Assembly (NCBI GenBank): GCA_030037735.1
Contig: JASHQC010000034.1
Coordinates: forward strand, 1 to 40,273
From: Thermoplasmata archaeon
GTDB taxonomy: Archaea; Thermoplasmatota; Thermoplasmata; Lutacidiplasmatales; UBA184
DNA: 40,273 nucleotides
Reading direction: 5' to 3'
Of this stretch, positions 4,453 through 22,809 are shown one piece after another (within the stretch, counting starts at the first letter, position 1; every line of letters starts with the position of its first letter). A program made the position numbers and the translations under genes. Below the pieces are notes generated by a model. The model ran no database searches, had not been told where the DNA came from, and was given only the letters and a program-made list of their open reading frames with translations.

Positions 4453-6153
4453 ATGACGGCTGCGCTAGGCGCCGAGACGCCGGGCTTTACGGTTCAAACA
4501 CCCGCCGCGACCGCGACGCAGCCGGGGCTGTACGTGCGTCAGACCTCCGGCCTCGTCCGTACCGTCGGACCTCGAACGGCCCTCTTCGCGAACCTCGTCG
4601 GCATGGGCATCATCGTCAACTTCTTCTGGGTCGTCTTTGCCTCTGAAGGCTACCCGAATGCGAACCTGACCGAGACCGTCGCGGTTGGAGTGGTGTTCAA
4701 CCTGGGTGTCGCGTTCGTCTACTGGATGCTGGCGAGCGCCATGCCGCGTTCGGGAGGGGATTACGTCTTCGTCGGCCGAATCTTCCACCCCAGCCTGGGC
4801 TTCGCCACGAATCTGACGTTCAGTTTCATCTTCATTTCCTGGGCCGGCCTCTTTGCGAACTACTTCGCCGCCTTCGGCGTGCCGATGATTCTGGGCGGCT
4901 ACGGGGTGACGGCCAACAACGCCTCGGCCATCAGCATGGCGGCCACGATTTCCAGCAGCACAACGGACATCTTCGTGATCGGGGCGGTCATCCTCATCGC
5001 CGTCATTCTGATCAGCCTCCTGCCGACGAAGTGGATCTTCCGCACCGCCGTCGGCATCTTCGTGATCTCGGGCGTCATCTTCCTGGTCATGGTGGGAATC
5101 CTCTTCTCCACTCCCTACTCGACCTTCGTCGCGGACTGGAATTCGAATCCCCTGAACCTTGCCCAGAGTTGCACGGTGACGGGACTCACCACCTCCAACA
5201 CCGTGCAGTGCGTCATCCAGACCTTCTACACGACGGCCATGACGACCCCGGCCGGTATCGCCTTCACGAACTCGGGCCTGTTCATCGGGGTCGTCTACAC
5301 GATGCTGAGCTTCATCGGCTACGCGAACACGGCCTACTTCGGGAGCGAGATCCGGGGAGCTCCCACGCGGACCCAGGGACTCGCCATCTTCGGTGCTCCG
5401 CTCCTGTTCGCGGCCCTCATCGCGATCCTGTATGCGGGGACCTACTACACCTTCGGCCATCCGTTCCTGGTTGCCGCCAGCTCAGACTGGGGCAACGGAT
5501 GGGGCAATGCGTTCCCGGCCATCCCGTCCCCATTGTTCCTCGTTTCGTATATCGTCCGCAATTCGACCCTGTCGGCCTTCCTGGCCTTCGGCGTCGCTCT
5601 GACGTTCTTCGGCTTCGTACTGATCTACTTCATCGTTCCGACCCGGAACCTGTTCGCCTGGTCCTTCGACCGGATCCTGCCGACCTTCGTGGCGCGCGTC
5701 ACGAGGAGCGGCGTTCCGTTCGTCACCGTGCTCATTCTCGGATTCTTCGCGTTCGTCTGCCTGTGGCTGACGACCTACACCAAGCTGTTCGATTTCCTAA
5801 CCTACGCCAACTTCGGCTTCTGGCTGGCCGTCGGCATCGTTGGCCTCGCCGGGGCGTTCTTCCCCTTCCTGCGGCCGGAACTGTATCGGGCCGCGCCCCG
5901 GATCGTGCGCACGAGCCTCGGACGCCTCCCGTTGATCACCCTGGTTGGGGTCCTTTCGGCAGGAGCCTCATTCTGGATCGTCTACGCCTCGTCTGTCCCC
6001 TCCTACACGCTCGAGACGGTCCAGTGGACCCAGCTCGCGATCTTCCCGATCGTGTTCGTCCTCGGTCTGGTGATCTACGTCATCTCCCACGCGATCCAAC
6101 GCAGCCGCGGACTTCCGATCGACCTCATCAACAAGGAGCTCCCGCCCGAGTAA
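4453..6153 (+). CDS. APC family amino acid permease
   Basis: Multiple hydrophobic segments; MPRSGGDYVFVGRIFHPSLGF motif; paralogous to 20102..21751. Confidence 0.88.
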   Translation: MTAALGAETPGFTVQTPAATATQPGLYVRQTSGLVRTVGPRTALFANLVGMGIIVNFFWVVFASEGYPNANLTETVAVGVVFNLGVAFVYWMLASAMPRSGGDYVFVGRIFHPSLGFATNLTFSFIFISWAGLFANYFAAFGVPMILGGYGVTANNASAISMAATISSSTTDIFVIGAVILIAVILISLLPTKWIFRTAVGIFVISGVIFLVMVGILFSTPYSTFVADWNSNPLNLAQSCTVTGLTTSNTVQCVIQTFYTTAMTTPAGIAFTNSGLFIGVVYTMLSFIGYANTAYFGSEIRGAPTRTQGLAIFGAPLLFAALIAILYAGTYYTFGHPFLVAASSDWGNGWGNAFPAIPSPLFLVSYIVRNSTLSAFLAFGVALTFFGFVLIYFIVPTRNLFAWSFDRILPTFVARVTRSGVPFVTVLILGFFAFVCLWLTTYTKLFDFLTYANFGFWLAVGIVGLAGAFFPFLRPELYRAAPRIVRTSLGRLPLITLVGVLSAGASFWIVYASSVPSYTLETVQWTQLAIFPIVFVLGLVIYVISHAIQRSRGLPIDLINKELPPE

Positions 6154-6210: not shown

Positions 6211-7245
6211 GTGGACGAGGTCGTAGAGGTCGTCGTCGATCCCTTCACGCAGGAGAAGCTCCCCCTCCATCCTCCCCTCGTTTTCCGGACCGATCCGGGC
6301 GAGGCCCGGCGGGCCCTGGGTCTGCCGGACTATGTCGACACCTCCGACCCGGTCATAGCTCACGGCGTCGGCCTGCTGCACGCCCTCTCGCTGGAGCTGC
6401 CCGGCCACGCGGTCGCCCTCCTGGGCGGCGTCGCCTATCGGCTTCGTTCGCCGTCGAGCAACTCCCCCACCTCGGGGCTTCGCCGGTCGCTGCACGACAT
6501 CGACCTGTGCTGCCACCACTCCGACGCGAAGAAGCTGCACAGCGCCCTGCTGAAGATCGGGGAACGGCAAGGGAGCGCGCTGACCGTAGTCGAAACCCAC
6601 GCCGACCGGATGTTCAACGCGCTGATGGGCGGGCGCCGCCTCCGGCTGCACAACGTCAACCAGGTGGTGGACGGACGCTGCGTGCTGGGGACGATCGACG
6701 TGCTCGCGGATGAGTTTCGGTTCTGCCACAACCTCGACCTCAAGGAGGACATCTCTCAGGCGCCGACGAACGGGCACACCCTTCCCCTGTCCACCCTCCT
6801 CCTCACGAAGCTGCAGTACATCCAGAGCATCCCCGCCGAACACCAGGCGCAGGTCCCCGGTCGTGTGCTAGGGCCGTTCGGCAAGAAGGAGGTCCTCATC
6901 GGGCCCGAAGACAAGGACGTGCGGGACATCCTAGCGCTACTGATCGACCGCCCCTTGGGGGAGAGTCTGGGCGAGATCTCCTCGACCCGGTTCGTTCAGC
7001 CGTTGACATCGGACTGGGGCTTTTGGACCACGGTGCGGCTCAATCTGGACCATCTCACGCAAACCCCCCTCTTTGCCGCCTTGCCGGCCGAGGTCCGGCC
7101 GACCGTGCAGAAGAAGGCCGAGGCGCTGCGGGCGGCGACGGACCGGGTCCAGCCGAAGCGCCGCTTCGGTTTCCTGCAGCGGGAATGGTGGGAGCCGGTC
7201 GAAACGCTCGGTACGCCGGCACCACCGGCGACTCCGTCCAGCTGA
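6211..7245 (+). CDS. Nucleotidyltransferase-fold protein (AbiEii-like), paralogue 1
   Basis: LLGGVAYRL..(x)..HDIDLCC plus third acidic residue TIDVLAD; LLLTKLQYIQ; DVRDILALL; SDWGFW. Matches 18345..19133 segment by segment. Confidence 0.7.
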   Translation: MDEVVEVVVDPFTQEKLPLHPPLVFRTDPGEARRALGLPDYVDTSDPVIAHGVGLLHALSLELPGHAVALLGGVAYRLRSPSSNSPTSGLRRSLHDIDLCCHHSDAKKLHSALLKIGERQGSALTVVETHADRMFNALMGGRRLRLHNVNQVVDGRCVLGTIDVLADEFRFCHNLDLKEDISQAPTNGHTLPLSTLLLTKLQYIQSIPAEHQAQVPGRVLGPFGKKEVLIGPEDKDVRDILALLIDRPLGESLGEISSTRFVQPLTSDWGFWTTVRLNLDHLTQTPLFAALPAEVRPTVQKKAEALRAATDRVQPKRRFGFLQREWWEPVETLGTPAPPATPSS

Positions 7246-7251
7246 ACCGGT

Positions 7252-8208
7252 TCAGCCGGTCGTGAGCACGAGCGCCTTGACCCGGTTCGGTTCTAGGTCG
7301 ACGATCAACCCTTGGAGTACCCCCTCGGTGTAAACGCTGCCGGGGTTGGCGCACACCGTCCGACCGAGCTCGGAGAACCCCTTCGATTCGTGGATGTGAC
7401 CGTGGAGGCCCAGGAGCGGCTGGTATTGCTCCACGGCGGCCCGTACCGCCGAGCTACCGACGTGGACCATCTCGGGCTCCCCGCCGGGACCCATGACCTT
7501 CGTCAGGTCCGCGGTCAGTCGGGGCGCGATGTCGAGATGCGTACCTTGGGGGGGGACATGAATGTTGAAGACGGCCCGCTCGGGGTGGTCAAGCTCCTCC
7601 GCCGCGGCACGGATCCGTTCCGTGATCTGCGGCTCCGCGAGTTCCCGGTTCGTGTGCCACGGGGTGATGTTGCTGTACGGGACCGTCAGAAGCTCGTGCG
7701 TGTCGTCGAGACGAAGGATCTTTCCGTCCGTGAGCTCAATGTAGTCGCTCGACGCCAACACACCCTCCATCTCGTCCAGGTCGTCGTTCCCAAGCCCAAT
7801 GAGCGTCCGGATACCGGTCCCCTTGAGTCGGCTCTCCGCGATCGCCATCCAACGGCGCAGCACGTCCAGGGCCAGCGTCCGGAACAGCGCGTCGGCCGTC
7901 CGTCGGTCTGCCGACACGTCTTGCCACTCCTTCGGGGTCGTCCGGTACGGGATTGTCCCCGAGGCCCGCAGGTCTTCTTCGAATCTCGCCAGATCCGAGT
8001 CGGTCTGGACCCATCGACGGCTTCCGAGGTAGAGGCCCGTCCAGCCCCCGTTCTCGGGCCAGAGCGGGGTGATCGTCTTCCCGGCGATGTCTCCCCCGAT
8101 CAGCAGGACTCGGGCGTCGTAGACCTTCCCCGCATTGACGAATTTGCGGAAGCAGCGCTCCGACCCGTGCAGGTCGGAAACGAAGAAGACCCGAGTCGGT
8201 TTCGCCAT
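7252..8208 (-). CDS. Calcineurin-like metallophosphoesterase, paralogue 1
   Basis: FFVSDLHGS, GGDIAGK, GLGNDD, NIHVPPQGTHLD, LHGHIHES metal-binding motifs. Confidence 0.9.
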   Translation of the reverse strand: MAKPTRVFFVSDLHGSERCFRKFVNAGKVYDARVLLIGGDIAGKTITPLWPENGGWTGLYLGSRRWVQTDSDLARFEEDLRASGTIPYRTTPKEWQDVSADRRTADALFRTLALDVLRRWMAIAESRLKGTGIRTLIGLGNDDLDEMEGVLASSDYIELTDGKILRLDDTHELLTVPYSNITPWHTNRELAEPQITERIRAAAEELDHPERAVFNIHVPPQGTHLDIAPRLTADLTKVMGPGGEPEMVHVGSSAVRAAVEQYQPLLGLHGHIHESKGFSELGRTVCANPGSVYTEGVLQGLIVDLEPNRVKALVLTTG

Positions 8209-17263: not shown

Positions 17264-17355
17264 GGGGACGCGCAGTCGAATCTCCGCTAAATCGGTTAGG
17301 GAAGAGGCCGGCGGCGCGAGAAGCCCCTCGAGCGGCCGGGCGGCGGTGGTCTGTG

Positions 17356-17361
17356 TTATAT
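17356..17361 (+). promoter_or_regulatory. TATA-like box of the MPE-NTase operon
   Basis: TTATAT centred about 26 nt upstream of the GTG at 17385. Confidence 0.5.
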
Positions 17362-17384: not shown

Positions 17385-18341
17385 GTGGGGCGCTTCCGGG
17401 TCTATTTCGTCAGTGACCTGCATGGCTCTGAGGTCTGTTTCCGAAAATTCCTCAACTCCGCGCCCGTCTATTCCCCCGACCTCTTGATCTACGGTGGGGA
17501 CATCCTTGGCAAGACCCTCGTTCCGATCTTCCACGACGAGAACGGCGGGTACCGCTGGTATCCGACGGGCCACGGTGCTCAGCACGTACCGAAGGACGAC
17601 CTCCCCGGCGTTCAGCGGAAGGTCGCCGATTCCGGCCGATACACCCTCGTCACGACTCCCGAAGAGTGGGCCCGATTACAGAAGGCTCCCGAGGAGATGG
17701 AAGCGCTCTTCGGGCGCCTGGCCCTGGAGCGCCTGCGCCACTGGCTCAACCTGGTCGAGGAGCGGCTCACGCCCACGAAAATCCCGGTCGTAATGAACGT
17801 AGGGAACGACGACACCAACGAAGCGCTGGAACTCATCCGGAACGAGGGGCCCGCGAACATGCTGGTCCCCGAGGGACGGGTGGTCCAGGCCGGCCCGTAC
17901 GAGTTCTTCGGCTGCGGGTACGCGAACATGACCCCGTGGCACTGCCCAAGGGACCTCGAGGAAAAGGACCTCGAGCAGGTACTCGATCGCACGCGCGGGC
18001 AGATTGGGAATCCGCGCCGAACGATCCTCGACGTCCATGCTCCCCCGTACGGAACCTCGCTCGACATGGCGGCCGAGCTGGACGCGGAGTTCAAGCCGCA
18101 GGTCGTAGCAGGGCACTTGTTGATGCACCACGTGGGGTCGACCTCGGTCCGAGAGTTGGTCGAGTCGGTTCGGCCGGTGGCCGGCCTCTTCGGGCACATT
18201 CACGAATCGCGGGCCGTGGACACCGTCGAGGGGGTCCCGGTCTTCAACCCCGGCAGCGCCTATTTCAGCGGCCAACTCCAGGGCCTGCTCCTCGACCTCG
18301 ACGGCGACCACGTGCTTTCCCATCTGTTCGTCCTGGGGTAG
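17385..18341 (+). CDS. Calcineurin-like metallophosphoesterase, paralogue 2
   Basis: VYFVSDLHGSEVCFRKF, GGDILGK, NVGNDD, DVHAPPYGTSLD, LFGHIHES. GTG at 17385 has TTATAT at 17356-17361, so it is favoured over ORF start 17346. Confidence 0.88.
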   Translation: MGRFRVYFVSDLHGSEVCFRKFLNSAPVYSPDLLIYGGDILGKTLVPIFHDENGGYRWYPTGHGAQHVPKDDLPGVQRKVADSGRYTLVTTPEEWARLQKAPEEMEALFGRLALERLRHWLNLVEERLTPTKIPVVMNVGNDDTNEALELIRNEGPANMLVPEGRVVQAGPYEFFGCGYANMTPWHCPRDLEEKDLEQVLDRTRGQIGNPRRTILDVHAPPYGTSLDMAAELDAEFKPQVVAGHLLMHHVGSTSVRELVESVRPVAGLFGHIHESRAVDTVEGVPVFNPGSAYFSGQLQGLLLDLDGDHVLSHLFVLG

Positions 18342-18344
18342 CGG

Positions 18345-19133
18345 GTGCCGGACACGGTTCGCCTCGAGGAAGCTCCCTTCATCGGGGAGATCGAGCGGAT
18401 CGTCCGACTGGCCGAGGAACGCGGAATCGTGCTGAGGGCCTGCGGGTCCGTGGGCCTGTACTACCGCCTGCGCCATGACCCGGGCGCTCGCGCCGTCTAC
18501 CTGCTGCGGGATGGAACCTCCCGCGTCACCCCACTCTTCAAGGACCTGGACTTGGCGAGCCAGGAGAAGCACTCCAGCAAGATCTACAAGCTCCTCGTCC
18601 AGGAGCTCGGCTACACGGAGGACCGGGAGACCAACGCGCTCTTCGGGATGTACAGGAACGTCTTCTTCCATCCTGCCTTCTCCATCGACATCTTTTACGA
18701 TGTGCTGCATTTCAGCCATGATATCCCTCTCAAGGACCGGTTCCCGCCGGGAGTGACGCTCACCCCCGAAGACCTGGTGCTCGGGAAACTGCAGATCCAC
18801 AAGACGACGACCCGGGACCTGATGGACCTCGGCGCGGCGGCGATGGCCTTTCACGTTGCCGGGCTGGACCGAGACTACCTCTCCACGATCGTGGGCGACG
18901 ACTGGGGGTTCTGGTACGACTCCGATCAGAACCTCCGACGGAGCAAGGAGCTAGTCTCGAGGCTGCCGACCGATGGGGACCCGGCAAAGCTCGAGATCGC
19001 CTCTCGTGCGGAGCGTCACCTCCAGGAGTACATCGACTTCCTCGCCAACGTGCCGAAGACGCGCCGGTGGGAGAAGCGGAGGGCCAAGGGGACCTCCGAG
19101 CCCTGGTACGAGGACGTGGACGAACTCCACTAG
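18345..19133 (+). CDS. Nucleotidyltransferase-fold protein (AbiEii-like), paralogue 2
   Basis: ACGSVGLYYRL..FKDLDLA, SIDIFYD, LVLGKLQIHK, RDLMDLGAA, DWGFW; starts 3 nt after the MPE stop. Confidence 0.7.
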   Translation: MPDTVRLEEAPFIGEIERIVRLAEERGIVLRACGSVGLYYRLRHDPGARAVYLLRDGTSRVTPLFKDLDLASQEKHSSKIYKLLVQELGYTEDRETNALFGMYRNVFFHPAFSIDIFYDVLHFSHDIPLKDRFPPGVTLTPEDLVLGKLQIHKTTTRDLMDLGAAAMAFHVAGLDRDYLSTIVGDDWGFWYDSDQNLRRSKELVSRLPTDGDPAKLEIASRAERHLQEYIDFLANVPKTRRWEKRRAKGTSEPWYEDVDELH

Positions 19134-20083
19134 CCGTTCCCGGAACGGCGCCGTGCGACGGCGGACATCGCTTCGAAGAGGGCGTTGGCGGCGGTGAGGG
19201 CCGTCACCTGGCCCATGTGGTCGTACTGCGGAGCCACCTCCACCACGTCGAACCCGACCACATGAAGCCGGTGCAGCGCTCGCAGGAAATGAATTAGCTC
19301 CCGGCTGGTGAGCCCGCCCGGCTCGGGAGTGCCGGTGCCCGGGGCGAACGCGGGGTCCAGGACGTCGATGTCGAGCGACACGTAGACGGGCTGGTCCCGG
19401 ATCTCCGCCACAATCTCGTCCATAATCGGGGCGTACCCGCGAACGTCCACATCCTCGGTCGTATACGTGCGATGGACGATTGCCGCATTGTTCGGCACGT
19501 CCTCGGCGCTGTACAGCGGGCTCCGGATCCCGACCTGGAACACGTTGCTCTTCGTGACGAGTCCTTCTTCGTACGCCCGCTTCACCCACGTGCCGTGGGT
19601 GAACCGTTTCGTCCCCCAGTAGGCCTCCCACGTGTCGAAGTGGGCGTCGAAATGGAGCAGGCTCACCGGTGTCCCAGCGGCCGCGCGCTGGGCCCTGAGG
19701 ATGGGAAGCGTGATGGAGTGGTCCCCGCCCGCAGTGAAAGGTACGACGCCGGCCTGGAAGATCGGCCGCAGGCCTTCCTCGATCCGCTGGAACGTGTCCT
19801 CGAGGAAACCGGGCACCGGGTCGATGTCCCCGAAGTCCACGACATCGAGCACCCGGAACGGGTAGACCTGGGCGAACATGTTGTACGAACGAACCAGCCT
19901 CGAATTGTTCCGGATCGCCGACGGCCCTTCGCGGGCGCCGCTCCGGAAACTCGTCGCATCGTCCCACGGTATCCCCAGGAAAACGCCCTTCGCCGTCCGA
20001 AGGTCTTGGGATTGGGGTAGCCGGGCGAACGACGCGATCTGAGCGAATCGTGGGGACCGGCCCAGGCCCTGCGGGTCGGTCAT
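19130..20083 (-). CDS. Agmatinase / ureohydrolase family
   Basis: GGDHSITLPILRA, HFDAHFDTWE, SLDIDVLDPAFAPGTGTPEPGGLTSREL manganese-binding motifs. Confidence 0.93.
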   Translation of the reverse strand: MTDPQGLGRSPRFAQIASFARLPQSQDLRTAKGVFLGIPWDDATSFRSGAREGPSAIRNNSRLVRSYNMFAQVYPFRVLDVVDFGDIDPVPGFLEDTFQRIEEGLRPIFQAGVVPFTAGGDHSITLPILRAQRAAAGTPVSLLHFDAHFDTWEAYWGTKRFTHGTWVKRAYEEGLVTKSNVFQVGIRSPLYSAEDVPNNAAIVHRTYTTEDVDVRGYAPIMDEIVAEIRDQPVYVSLDIDVLDPAFAPGTGTPEPGGLTSRELIHFLRALHRLHVVGFDVVEVAPQYDHMGQVTALTAANALFEAMSAVARRRSGNG

Positions 20084-20101: not shown

Positions 20102-21751
20102 TTAGTCCGGAGGGAGTTCCTTGAAGGCGAGCCCGATGTCAATCCCACGGGTCCGCTGGTTGTACCAGCGCGACGCGAGGAAGAGAATCGCCGCGCCGAT
20201 GAAAACGGCCACGATGATGATCGCCCCCGTCTCTTTGTTGGACGGGGTGAACGCGGCCGCGGCGCCTAGGAGCGGCAACGTGGCCACCAGATAGGCCGAG
20301 ACCAACGTCACCACGAACGAGAGACCCCCCGCGATGACGCTGAGCGGCTTGTGGTTCTTGAGACCCAGCCGCGCGAGCGACAGCGACGTGAGCATGACGG
20401 TGAGCATCGGAAGGAAGAACAACAGGAAAACGAACGGCGTGTACAGGGCCGTGTAATAATAGGTGAGGAACGGTAGCAGTATGATCCCCGCGACGCCGAT
20501 GAAGAGAATGCCCACCCACGGCTGGTGCGTCGACCGGGTAACGTTCCCCATCCACTTCGGAACGATGCGGTCCAGCGACATCGAGAGCATGAACCGGGAG
20601 AAAATGTAGAATCCCAGGATCAGCCACAACAGGTACCACGACGCGGAGCCGAGGAAGATAATTCCCAGCCAGATCGAGTTTCCGTGGGCGGCAAACGCCG
20701 GCGCCGACGTGAGTCCCATGGCAAAGGGCAACGTGGCCGTTACGCCGGTGGGACCGGGAATTCCGTAATCCGTGATCGCCACGGATCCGTTGAGGAAATT
20801 CATCCCGACCACGACTTCGAAGGTCCGTACGATGAGCACGGCGAAGGCGACCGACAGGAGGAACGAGATCGCCATCCCGGTGGTGATACTCCGGGAGGAG
20901 CGCTTGAACTCCCCCGCGATGTAGCTCGGCGCCGTGCCGAACATGTAGTAGAAGGCGAACAGTAACGGAACGAACAGGATCGTATTCGTAAGGCTCGACC
21001 CGTAGGCTCCAAAGTTCGCCGCGCCGTAGGCAGAGATGGCCTGGTAGTACGTCGGATCACCGGTATAGTTGTTCACGGCGTTGACGAAACCGGTGTGGCC
21101 CATCGCGAGCAGCAGGCCCACCGATACCAGGATTCCGAAGAGCTCGAGGATGAGGAGGGCTGAAAAGATCTGAAAGGCGACCTTAGGCTTCATGACGATC
21201 CAGAGGGCCATCGCGACGAGCGTCACGAGGATTCCAATAATGGTGATGTAGAGCGGATTACCGATGACGAGACTGATGCTGTTCCCCTCGGTGAGCAGGT
21301 GGGCATTGCTGGTGAACGCCCCCCACACGGCGAGGCTGGGCCCGACGCTCAGCGTCGAGAACCAGTACGGGAGCACCGCAGCGTAGATGATGACGTTGAG
21401 GAGGCGACCGAAGGCCGACAGGATGCCGAAGTAGGGGTGGAGCTGCCGGGACGAGTACACGTACTCCCCCCCCGACCGGGGCATCTCGATTCCGATCAAC
21501 GTGTACGTGACGATAATCGGGATGGCGATGAGGGCGGCCAGCGCCGTGGCCTGCATCAAGTTCGCCCCGGTGACGAACAGCAGGATGATCAGGAACAGAC
21601 CGAAGGCGGGGCCGGGTCCGAGCGAAATGAGGTTGATCGAGAAGGACTCGAAGGCCCCCAAGTCCTTGACCAGTCCACTGGTCTTTCGCGCGAAGACAGT
21701 CCTCTCAACTTCCGCGGTCGCGGCGGCCGTGGCGTCCGCTGTTGCAGCCAT
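20102..21751 (-). CDS. APC family amino acid permease
   Basis: MPRSGGEYVYSSRQLHPYFG; about 12 hydrophobic segments; paralogue of 4453..6153. Confidence 0.9.
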   Translation of the reverse strand: MAATADATAAATAEVERTVFARKTSGLVKDLGAFESFSINLISLGPGPAFGLFLIILLFVTGANLMQATALAALIAIPIIVTYTLIGIEMPRSGGEYVYSSRQLHPYFGILSAFGRLLNVIIYAAVLPYWFSTLSVGPSLAVWGAFTSNAHLLTEGNSISLVIGNPLYITIIGILVTLVAMALWIVMKPKVAFQIFSALLILELFGILVSVGLLLAMGHTGFVNAVNNYTGDPTYYQAISAYGAANFGAYGSSLTNTILFVPLLFAFYYMFGTAPSYIAGEFKRSSRSITTGMAISFLLSVAFAVLIVRTFEVVVGMNFLNGSVAITDYGIPGPTGVTATLPFAMGLTSAPAFAAHGNSIWLGIIFLGSASWYLLWLILGFYIFSRFMLSMSLDRIVPKWMGNVTRSTHQPWVGILFIGVAGIILLPFLTYYYTALYTPFVFLLFFLPMLTVMLTSLSLARLGLKNHKPLSVIAGGLSFVVTLVSAYLVATLPLLGAAAAFTPSNKETGAIIIVAVFIGAAILFLASRWYNQRTRGIDIGLAFKELPPD

Positions 21752-21960: not shown

Positions 21961-22809
21961 ATGCGCGTCGCCCTGAATCAGTTCGCCCCCGAGTTTCCCG
22001 GACGGGATCGGAACTGGGAGCGGATCCGGGGGGCCGCGGAAGCGACCGAGGCGGATGTAGTGGTGTTCCCGGAGCTCACCTCGACTGGGTACATGTACCA
22101 GAACCGCGCCGAGATCGCGCCGTACAGCGACTCGCGGGAGGCGCTGCGTTCCCTCGGACCGATCGCACGCCAGCATGGCCGGCTGATCGTGGGCGGCTTC
22201 GCCGAGCGCGTCGGCGGAAAACTGTTCAACAGCGCCTACGCGGTCGGCCCGGACCGGACTTGGGTGTACCGTAAGATCCATCTGTGGAACATGGAGAACG
22301 AGATCTTCGGGACCGGCAACCAGGAGCTTACGTTCGAGTTCCAAGGCCACCGCATCGGGATCATCGTCTGCTACGACCTCCAGTTCCCCGAGCTGGCCAG
22401 TTACTATGCTGCCAAAGGAGTCGAGCTGTTACTCGTCCCCATGGCGTGGGCGGAAGAGCCGGTGCCGCTCGGTTCTCCGTTGCAGATTTACAATCACCTC
22501 GCTATCTCCACGGCATTCTCCCACGGGATCTATGTCGGAGTTTCCAACCGGGTGGGAACGGAACGGGGAGCGGTCTTTCCAGGACAATCGAGCCTGACCG
22601 ACCCGTTCGGCCGGATCCAATACCTCGATTCTGCGGAAGGCACCCTCCTCGCGACACTCGATTTCTCCCTGCTCGGAAAGGCCAAGCAGCCCAATCCACG
22701 GAACAATCTCGACACGGATCCGCGTCTCCGGATATCGCTCCCGAAGCCGGCGCCGGCCCGCCGAACGCGTCGGGCGAAGTATCGGCGCGGCCGCTCCTCT
22801 CGGCGCTAA
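21961..22809 (+). CDS. Carbon-nitrogen hydrolase (nitrilase superfamily)
   Basis: Glu/Lys/Cys triad FPELTSTGY, YRKIHLW, IVCYDLQFPE; ATG at 21961 with TTTTCTAC about 27 nt upstream. Confidence 0.92.
   Translation: MRVALNQFAPEFPGRDRNWERIRGAAEATEADVVVFPELTSTGYMYQNRAEIAPYSDSREALRSLGPIARQHGRLIVGGFAERVGGKLFNSAYAVGPDRTWVYRKIHLWNMENEIFGTGNQELTFEFQGHRIGIIVCYDLQFPELASYYAAKGVELLLVPMAWAEEPVPLGSPLQIYNHLAISTAFSHGIYVGVSNRVGTERGAVFPGQSSLTDPFGRIQYLDSAEGTLLATLDFSLLGKAKQPNPRNNLDTDPRLRISLPKPAPARRTRRAKYRRGRSSRR

Follow-up and report, generated by a model that had tools for sequence, protein, structure and literature searches.

A tailed APC permease, a metallophosphoesterase and a Pol β-type nucleotidyltransferase make up a three-gene system in archaea

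Two described systems stand closest to the locus presented here. In the GlnD-PII(GlnK)-AmtB system, a Pol β-type nucleotidyltransferase (NTase) controls a nitrogen-nutrient transporter by way of PII, and the nucleotide is removed by the HD domain of GlnD. The transporter and regulator genes are paired, and in archaea co-precipitation shows GlnK bound to the AmtB with which its gene is paired (PMC3831643). In HEPN-MNT pairs (HepT/MntA, type VII toxin-antitoxin), a small Pol β NTase with a GS...DxD motif and its protein target have neighbouring genes; MntA adenylylates Tyr104 of HepT, the protein encoded next door (PMC7641770). The trio that we describe resembles both in this pairing, yet belongs to neither. 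Unlike in GlnD-PII-AmtB, the transporter is an APC permease, the hydrolase is a separate metallophosphoesterase (MPE), and direct action on the permease is a proposal of ours; neither PII nor Amt was noticed among the module genes read. Unlike in HEPN-MNT, the partners are an MPE and a permease rather than a HEPN RNase, there is no toxin, and the glycine lies ~33 residues ahead of DxD in our protein, NTase2, as against ~10. No HEPN-domain gene is adjacent: the neighbours in the window are an MPE, an arginase-family gene and an APC, and across 80 loci they are recurrently MPE and APC. Little is known about post-translational control of amino-acid import in archaea, and our searches of the open-access literature for descriptions of an APC-MPE-NTase trio found none.

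The window, the whole 40,273-nucleotide stretch of Thermoplasmata DNA that was analysed, holds two copies of the trio, the second of which (block 2) is the subject of this study. Their features are as follows.

4453..6153, + strand: APC1, the block 1 permease, with RQTSGLVR and KELPPE tails (PF13520, 63 bits, over cut-off)
6211..7245, + strand: NTase1, the diverged block 1 nucleotidyltransferase (catalytic residues align; weak profile matches)
7252..8208, - strand: MPE1, the block 1 metallophosphoesterase (37% identical to MPE2 over its full length)
17356..17361, + strand: TTATAT, putative TATA box of the MPE2-NTase2 operon (TATA invariant in eight orthologous upstream regions)
17385..18341, + strand: MPE2, calcineurin-like metallophosphoesterase, 318 aa (Pfam PF00149, invariants of 55 sequences, AlphaFold)
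18345..19133, + strand: NTase2, Pol β-superfamily nucleotidyltransferase, 262 aa (invariants of 60 sequences, AlphaFold, fold matches)
19130..20083, - strand: agmatinase/arginase-family gene between NTase2 and APC2, a pathway neighbour (PF00491, E 1e-89)
20102..21751, - strand: APC2, the block 2 amino-acid permease (PF00324, 26.7 bits, over cut-off)
20105..20146, - strand: C-terminal motif of APC2, GIDIGLAFKELPPD (P547 invariant, G536, E545 and P548 at least 90% conserved in the alignment)
21665..21688, - strand: N-terminal cytosolic motif of APC2, RKTSGLVK, residues 22-29, with Ser25 as candidate modified residue (tail conservation)
21961..22809, + strand: carbon-nitrogen hydrolase, a pathway neighbour, start inferred (PF00795, E 1e-34)

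The permease was absent from the initial annotation, which had described an MPE-NTase pair. It adjoins both copies, APC1 lying by NTase1 and APC2 past the agmatinase-family gene, and both proteins match amino-acid permease Pfam models, as expected of the APC superfamily. Within block 2, the TAG of MPE2 ends at 18341 and the GTG of NTase2 starts at 18345, leaving a gap of 3 nt as first reported; across orthologues this gap measures 3-10 nt. The TTATAT hexamer is unique in the window on both strands, at 64% GC, and stands ~28 nt 5′ of the MPE2 GTG, the expected archaeal distance. Since the TATA is conserved in all eight orthologues at that distance, a leaderless transcription start at or near the GTG at 17385, as previously proposed, is well supported as a prediction. 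A longer MPE2 frame starting at 17346 would run over the TATA box, and the MPE2 orthologues begin at the residue equivalent to the 17385 start.

MPE2 has a complete set of metal ligands (D11, H13, D39, N141, H218, H271 and H273), and the D-x-H, G-D, G-N-D, H and G-H-x-H motifs of the calcineurin-like superfamily are conserved over 55 sequences. Against PF00149 it scores 27.0 bits (cut-off 21.5); MPE1 on its own falls under this cut-off. The nearest folds to the AlphaFold model (pLDDT 94.6) are aq_1956, TT1561, MPPED2 and SbcD/Mre11. With the Icc/CpdA-like enzymes (aq_1956, TT1561, MPPED2, Rv0805), MPE2 has in common the calcineurin-like fold and the full ligand set, but identity is ~15%, and MPE2 alone has the permease-subfamily partnership and a family-specific helical segment at residues ~55-127, with invariant residues of its own, Y86 and W120. 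Both MPE1 and MPE2 weakly match the PADLOC candidate family PDC-S10 (2-3e-8), which may thus include non-defence phosphoesterases.

The catalytic residues of NTase2 are G34-S35, D67-x-D69 and D115. G34, D67, D69 and D115 are invariant in 60 family sequences, in the G-[GSA]...DxD...third Asp arrangement of the Pol β superfamily. For the AlphaFold model (pLDDT 94.4), the best PDB folds, all weak, are of the AbiEii/MenT and ANT(2'')-Ia kind: MenT1, ANT(2'')-Ia and CCA-adding enzymes, but at only ~10-13% identity, with TM ~0.35-0.4 on the query and E no better than 1.6e-3. From the invariant residues and the fold matches we assign NTase2 to the Pol β superfamily as a member of an unnamed family whose active site, judged by sequence, is apparently intact. 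It passes no Pfam or NCBIfam model, and few of the 60 family members give weak Pfam matches: PF14907 (NTP_transf_5) is matched at E ≤ 0.01 by seven and reaches 24.6 bits at best, under its curated cut-off of 31.2, and PF08843 (AbiEii) is matched by one, at E 0.008 only. Searched against PDB sequences, the NTase profile returned nothing credible.

The fold of MenT1, together with the weak PDC-S10 match of the MPE (2e-8), would suit a toxin-antitoxin or defence system made of an MNT/AbiEii-like NTase and an MPE partner. We consider this very improbable and the reading is not supported, as neither HEPN nor AbiEi, the partner expected of a type IV AbiEii system, was seen beside the window copies, PADLOC has no match to the NTase, and searches of phage, viral-contig and PHROGs collections gave no NTase relatives. 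The blocks are moreover syntenic within the genus and constantly linked to a nutrient permease, a context ill-suited to the PDC-S10 match. CBASS or another cyclic-oligonucleotide system finds no sign either, PADLOC giving no NTase match and no CD-NTase appearing among the fold matches listed. Since no phage or viral relatives of the NTase were found, there is no support for a mobile or viral origin; in plasmid searches the NTase occurred on one record only, a 398 kb haloarchaeal replicon.

Block 1 is an old paralogue of block 2. MPE1 and MPE2 align over their full length, and NTase1 and NTase2 are ~22-25% identical with catalytic residues kept in both; NTase1 also gave weak but independent profile matches in five genomes of the genus. 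In copy 1, NTase1 (+) and MPE1 (-) are convergent, and copy 2 is co-directional, a difference that was noted from the start. The three NTase-bearing blocks of the genome sit in different old clades, so the window copies are ancient, co-diverged paralogous blocks and no recent tandem duplication, again in agreement with the initial annotation. That annotation had also remarked on a basic, Trp-containing C-terminus common to the two NTases. In the NTase2 family it holds, as a near-invariant K-x-R-x-W-E-K-R...W-Y (K238..W242-E-K-R..W254 in NTase2), but the NTase1 version is degenerate. The suggestion that this end contacts nucleic acid is not supported: the motif is conserved, yet neither a partner nor the context points that way, the neighbouring genes serving uptake and catabolism of amino acids and amines and including no RNA or DNA genes in common.

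Beyond the window, a genome-collection scan with a profile from nine closer NTase sequences returned 80 NTase loci, which span Thermoplasmata, Thermoproteota, Bathyarchaeota, Asgard-related archaea and a few thermophilic bacteria. An MPE of the same family lies within ~6 kb in 75 of the 80, and four of the other five have little flanking sequence. In 41 of the 80, MPE is followed by NTase co-directionally at 150 bp or less; the remaining linked loci are arranged differently, some with NTase first, some convergent and some divergent. By profile search, an APC is found within 3 kb in 71 of the 80 loci, among them every one of the 42 that extend over 12 kb or more. The source genome encodes four MPEs and five APCs, and all four MPEs lie less than 2 kb from four of the five APCs, an adjacency with a chance probability of ~1e-7. 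Its C77 block has the order MPE-APC-NTase. In some loci (L071, L091, L094, L096, L102, L115 and L117, from Wolframiiraptor, Geocrenenecus and relatives) the MPE and APC stand ~5.6 kb from a divergent NTase; an amine-metabolism insert (a glutamine-synthetase-like ligase, an aminotransferase and another gene) separates them in the two that were read.

Presence of the NTase is less regular: some 15 of 85 MPEs lack an NTase within 7 kb. The C3 block of the source genome (G000 C3:33637-36432, L008) is an APC-MPE pair without a nearby NTase, and likewise in G001, G003 and G004; such pairs suggest that the NTase is locally dispensable or acts in trans. MPE and permease, by contrast with the NTase, strictly co-occur in the two genome samples searched. 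Among 61 Thermoplasmata-side genomes, strong APC matches and MPEs occur together in 11 and neither occurs in the other 50, except for one MPE fragment (G046). In 200 Thermoproteota genomes, an unselected sample drawn evenly from the phylum, 42 have a tailed APC and all 42 have an MPE; one further genome has a weak MPE (G230), and four have an APC match but no MPE, those permeases being without tails. The raw Fisher values, which ignore shared ancestry, are 2e-12 and 1e-42, respectively.

Copy numbers and trees follow the same course. In 47 genomes, 36 of which were reached via the NTase scan and are hence conditioned on having an NTase, we counted 85 MPEs, 95 tailed APCs and 80 NTases; the numbers of MPEs and tailed APCs are equal in 39 of the 47 (Spearman 0.93, shared ancestry ignored). 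Patristic distances over 53-54 trios, computed without the long-branch NTase1 and likewise ignoring shared ancestry, correlate at 0.87 for APC-MPE, 0.66 for MPE-NTase and 0.54 for APC-NTase. For these pairs, respectively, 16, 16 and 12 of 25 representatives have the same nearest neighbour in both trees, where chance would give ~1. The three trees are therefore congruent, in keeping with parallel duplication, and the unrelated histories of MPE and NTase that would have told against the pairing named in the initial annotation were not found; the claim that the two form a functional module stands on this congruence and on the linkage above. Neighbourhood inertia, by which conserved genes would stay adjacent without joint function, could draw on the synteny of some blocks within the genus (G002-G005). 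We give it hardly any credence, since the genes stay linked across phyla in widely varying orders and orientations, paralogous blocks sit at different places of one genome, and the genes are jointly present or absent in 200 genomes.

The linked permeases share two features outside the PF13520/PF00324 core common to the APC superfamily. Ahead of the first membrane helix runs R-x-x-[S/T]-G-L-x-[R/K], in which R22 and G26 (APC2 numbering) are invariant in the alignment; at the C-terminus stands G-I-x...E-[I/V/L]-P-P, with the PP present in 126 of 138. Using a pattern that left the fourth position of the N-terminal motif free, we counted Ser in 106 and Thr in 16 of 122 full-length linked permeases, and saw nothing else. 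The unlinked APC of the source genome (C1) has neither tail, nor do four APCs of MPE-free genomes. Alternation between Ser and Thr is the pattern of a hydroxyl modification site and could point to one; a helix cap is also conceivable. The Ser/Thr is also kept where no NTase is nearby (the C3 block of the source genome and several Sulfolobales-like loci), and so it may serve something besides the NTase. The tails could also be just structural marks of the APC subfamily that travels with MPE.

The functional link among the trio is strongly supported; the chemistry we infer. MPE and NTase probably have as their target either the permease or a signal directed to it, and we lean, with some reserve, towards seeing them as cytosolic regulatory enzymes dedicated to the tailed permease subfamily. 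Most likely, and in the most economical chemistry, two soluble, cytosolic enzymes would control uptake through an opposed nucleotidyl cycle: NTase would put a nucleotide on the Ser/Thr of R-x-x-[S/T]-G-L-x-[R/K], the most plausible acceptor, MPE would cleave the resulting phosphodiester, and the modification state would set transport on or off. That the tailed permeases are switched in this covalent way and reset by an obligate MPE partner is a tentative proposal, and the N-terminal Ser/Thr as the acceptor is put forward just as tentatively. We prefer direct tail modification because each permease has one enzyme set and the tails are near-invariant.

The main rival to direct tail modification is a diffusible nucleotide. 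NTase would make a small, perhaps cyclic or oligomeric, nucleotide, MPE would degrade it, and the permease tails would bind it. A Pol β NTase and a phosphodiesterase-type MPE form a natural make-and-break pair, and in its fold the MPE resembles phosphodiesterases that act on cyclic nucleotides and oligonucleotides, for instance MPPED2 and Mre11/SbcD. A precedent is c-di-AMP, which controls potassium and glutamate homeostasis (PMC7857571). Tailed permeases outnumber MPEs in several complete genomes, some of them unlinked, so that action of the MPE in trans is probable; that many unlinked permeases there depend on a single MPE or a few suits a diffusible signal. We nevertheless judge a messenger unlikely. 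A diffusible signal would have no need of the MPE that usually adjoins each permease, the fold matches listed for the NTase (MenT1, ANT(2'')-Ia, CCA enzymes) include no signal synthase, and the conserved tails resemble contact or modification sites rather than a ligand-binding domain.

Uneven numbers were seen in G086, with six tailed permeases and two MPEs, and in four complete, tentatively Sulfolobales-like genomes (G219, G264, G184 and G146; L251-L256, L262 and L267-L269), with 5-6 tailed permeases and 2-4 MPEs. Several MPEs of these four are unlinked to permeases and have no nearby NTase, and their N-terminal tail often reads R-[E/Q]-[S/A]-[S/T]-G-L, not R-[K/R]-A-S-G-L.

The pathway neighbours raise another reading, in which NTase and MPE would nucleotidylate and release the imported compound itself as steps of amino-acid or amine catabolism. 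The NTase fold is near that of ANT(2'')-Ia, an enzyme that transfers a nucleotide to a small molecule, and agmatinase, carbon-nitrogen hydrolase, class III aminotransferase and glutamine-synthetase-like ligase genes lie close by. These catabolic neighbours vary by locus, however, with APC and MPE constant, and substrate chemistry leaves both the invariant permease tails and the three or four diverged blocks of one genome unexplained; we hold it to be quite doubtful. Such amine-catabolic genes, among them glutamine-synthetase-like ligases and class III aminotransferases, flank the trio in L071, L094, L105 and L092, which suggests that permease substrates differ by block.

Direct control of the permease, if true, would mean reversible nucleotidylation of a membrane transporter itself, a widespread and undescribed form of regulation, and functional names would follow for three families now generically annotated. 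The link as such suggests uncharacterised control of nutrient uptake in archaea and some heat-loving bacteria, and it ties the NTase family to one permease subfamily through co-occurrence in 261 genomes and linkage across several phyla. In the one named record examined for its annotation, the Halobellus limi plasmid NZ_CP031312.1, a metallophosphoesterase, a 'hypothetical protein' (the NTase) and an APC family permease are consecutive, and the permease has REATGLVR. Thermomicrobium roseum, like H. limi a cultured organism, has APC, MPE and a carbon-nitrogen hydrolase in this order, the permease tails being RQSSGLVR and YREVPAE; a separate MNT-HEPN pair lies ~2 kb from its APC-MPE pair (L276 8323-9058). 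Lastly, the MPE frame is split in two pieces in L067 and L097, and one NTase (G047:C33:1989-2810) has a single in-frame TGA; these are probably assembly errors or pseudogenes.
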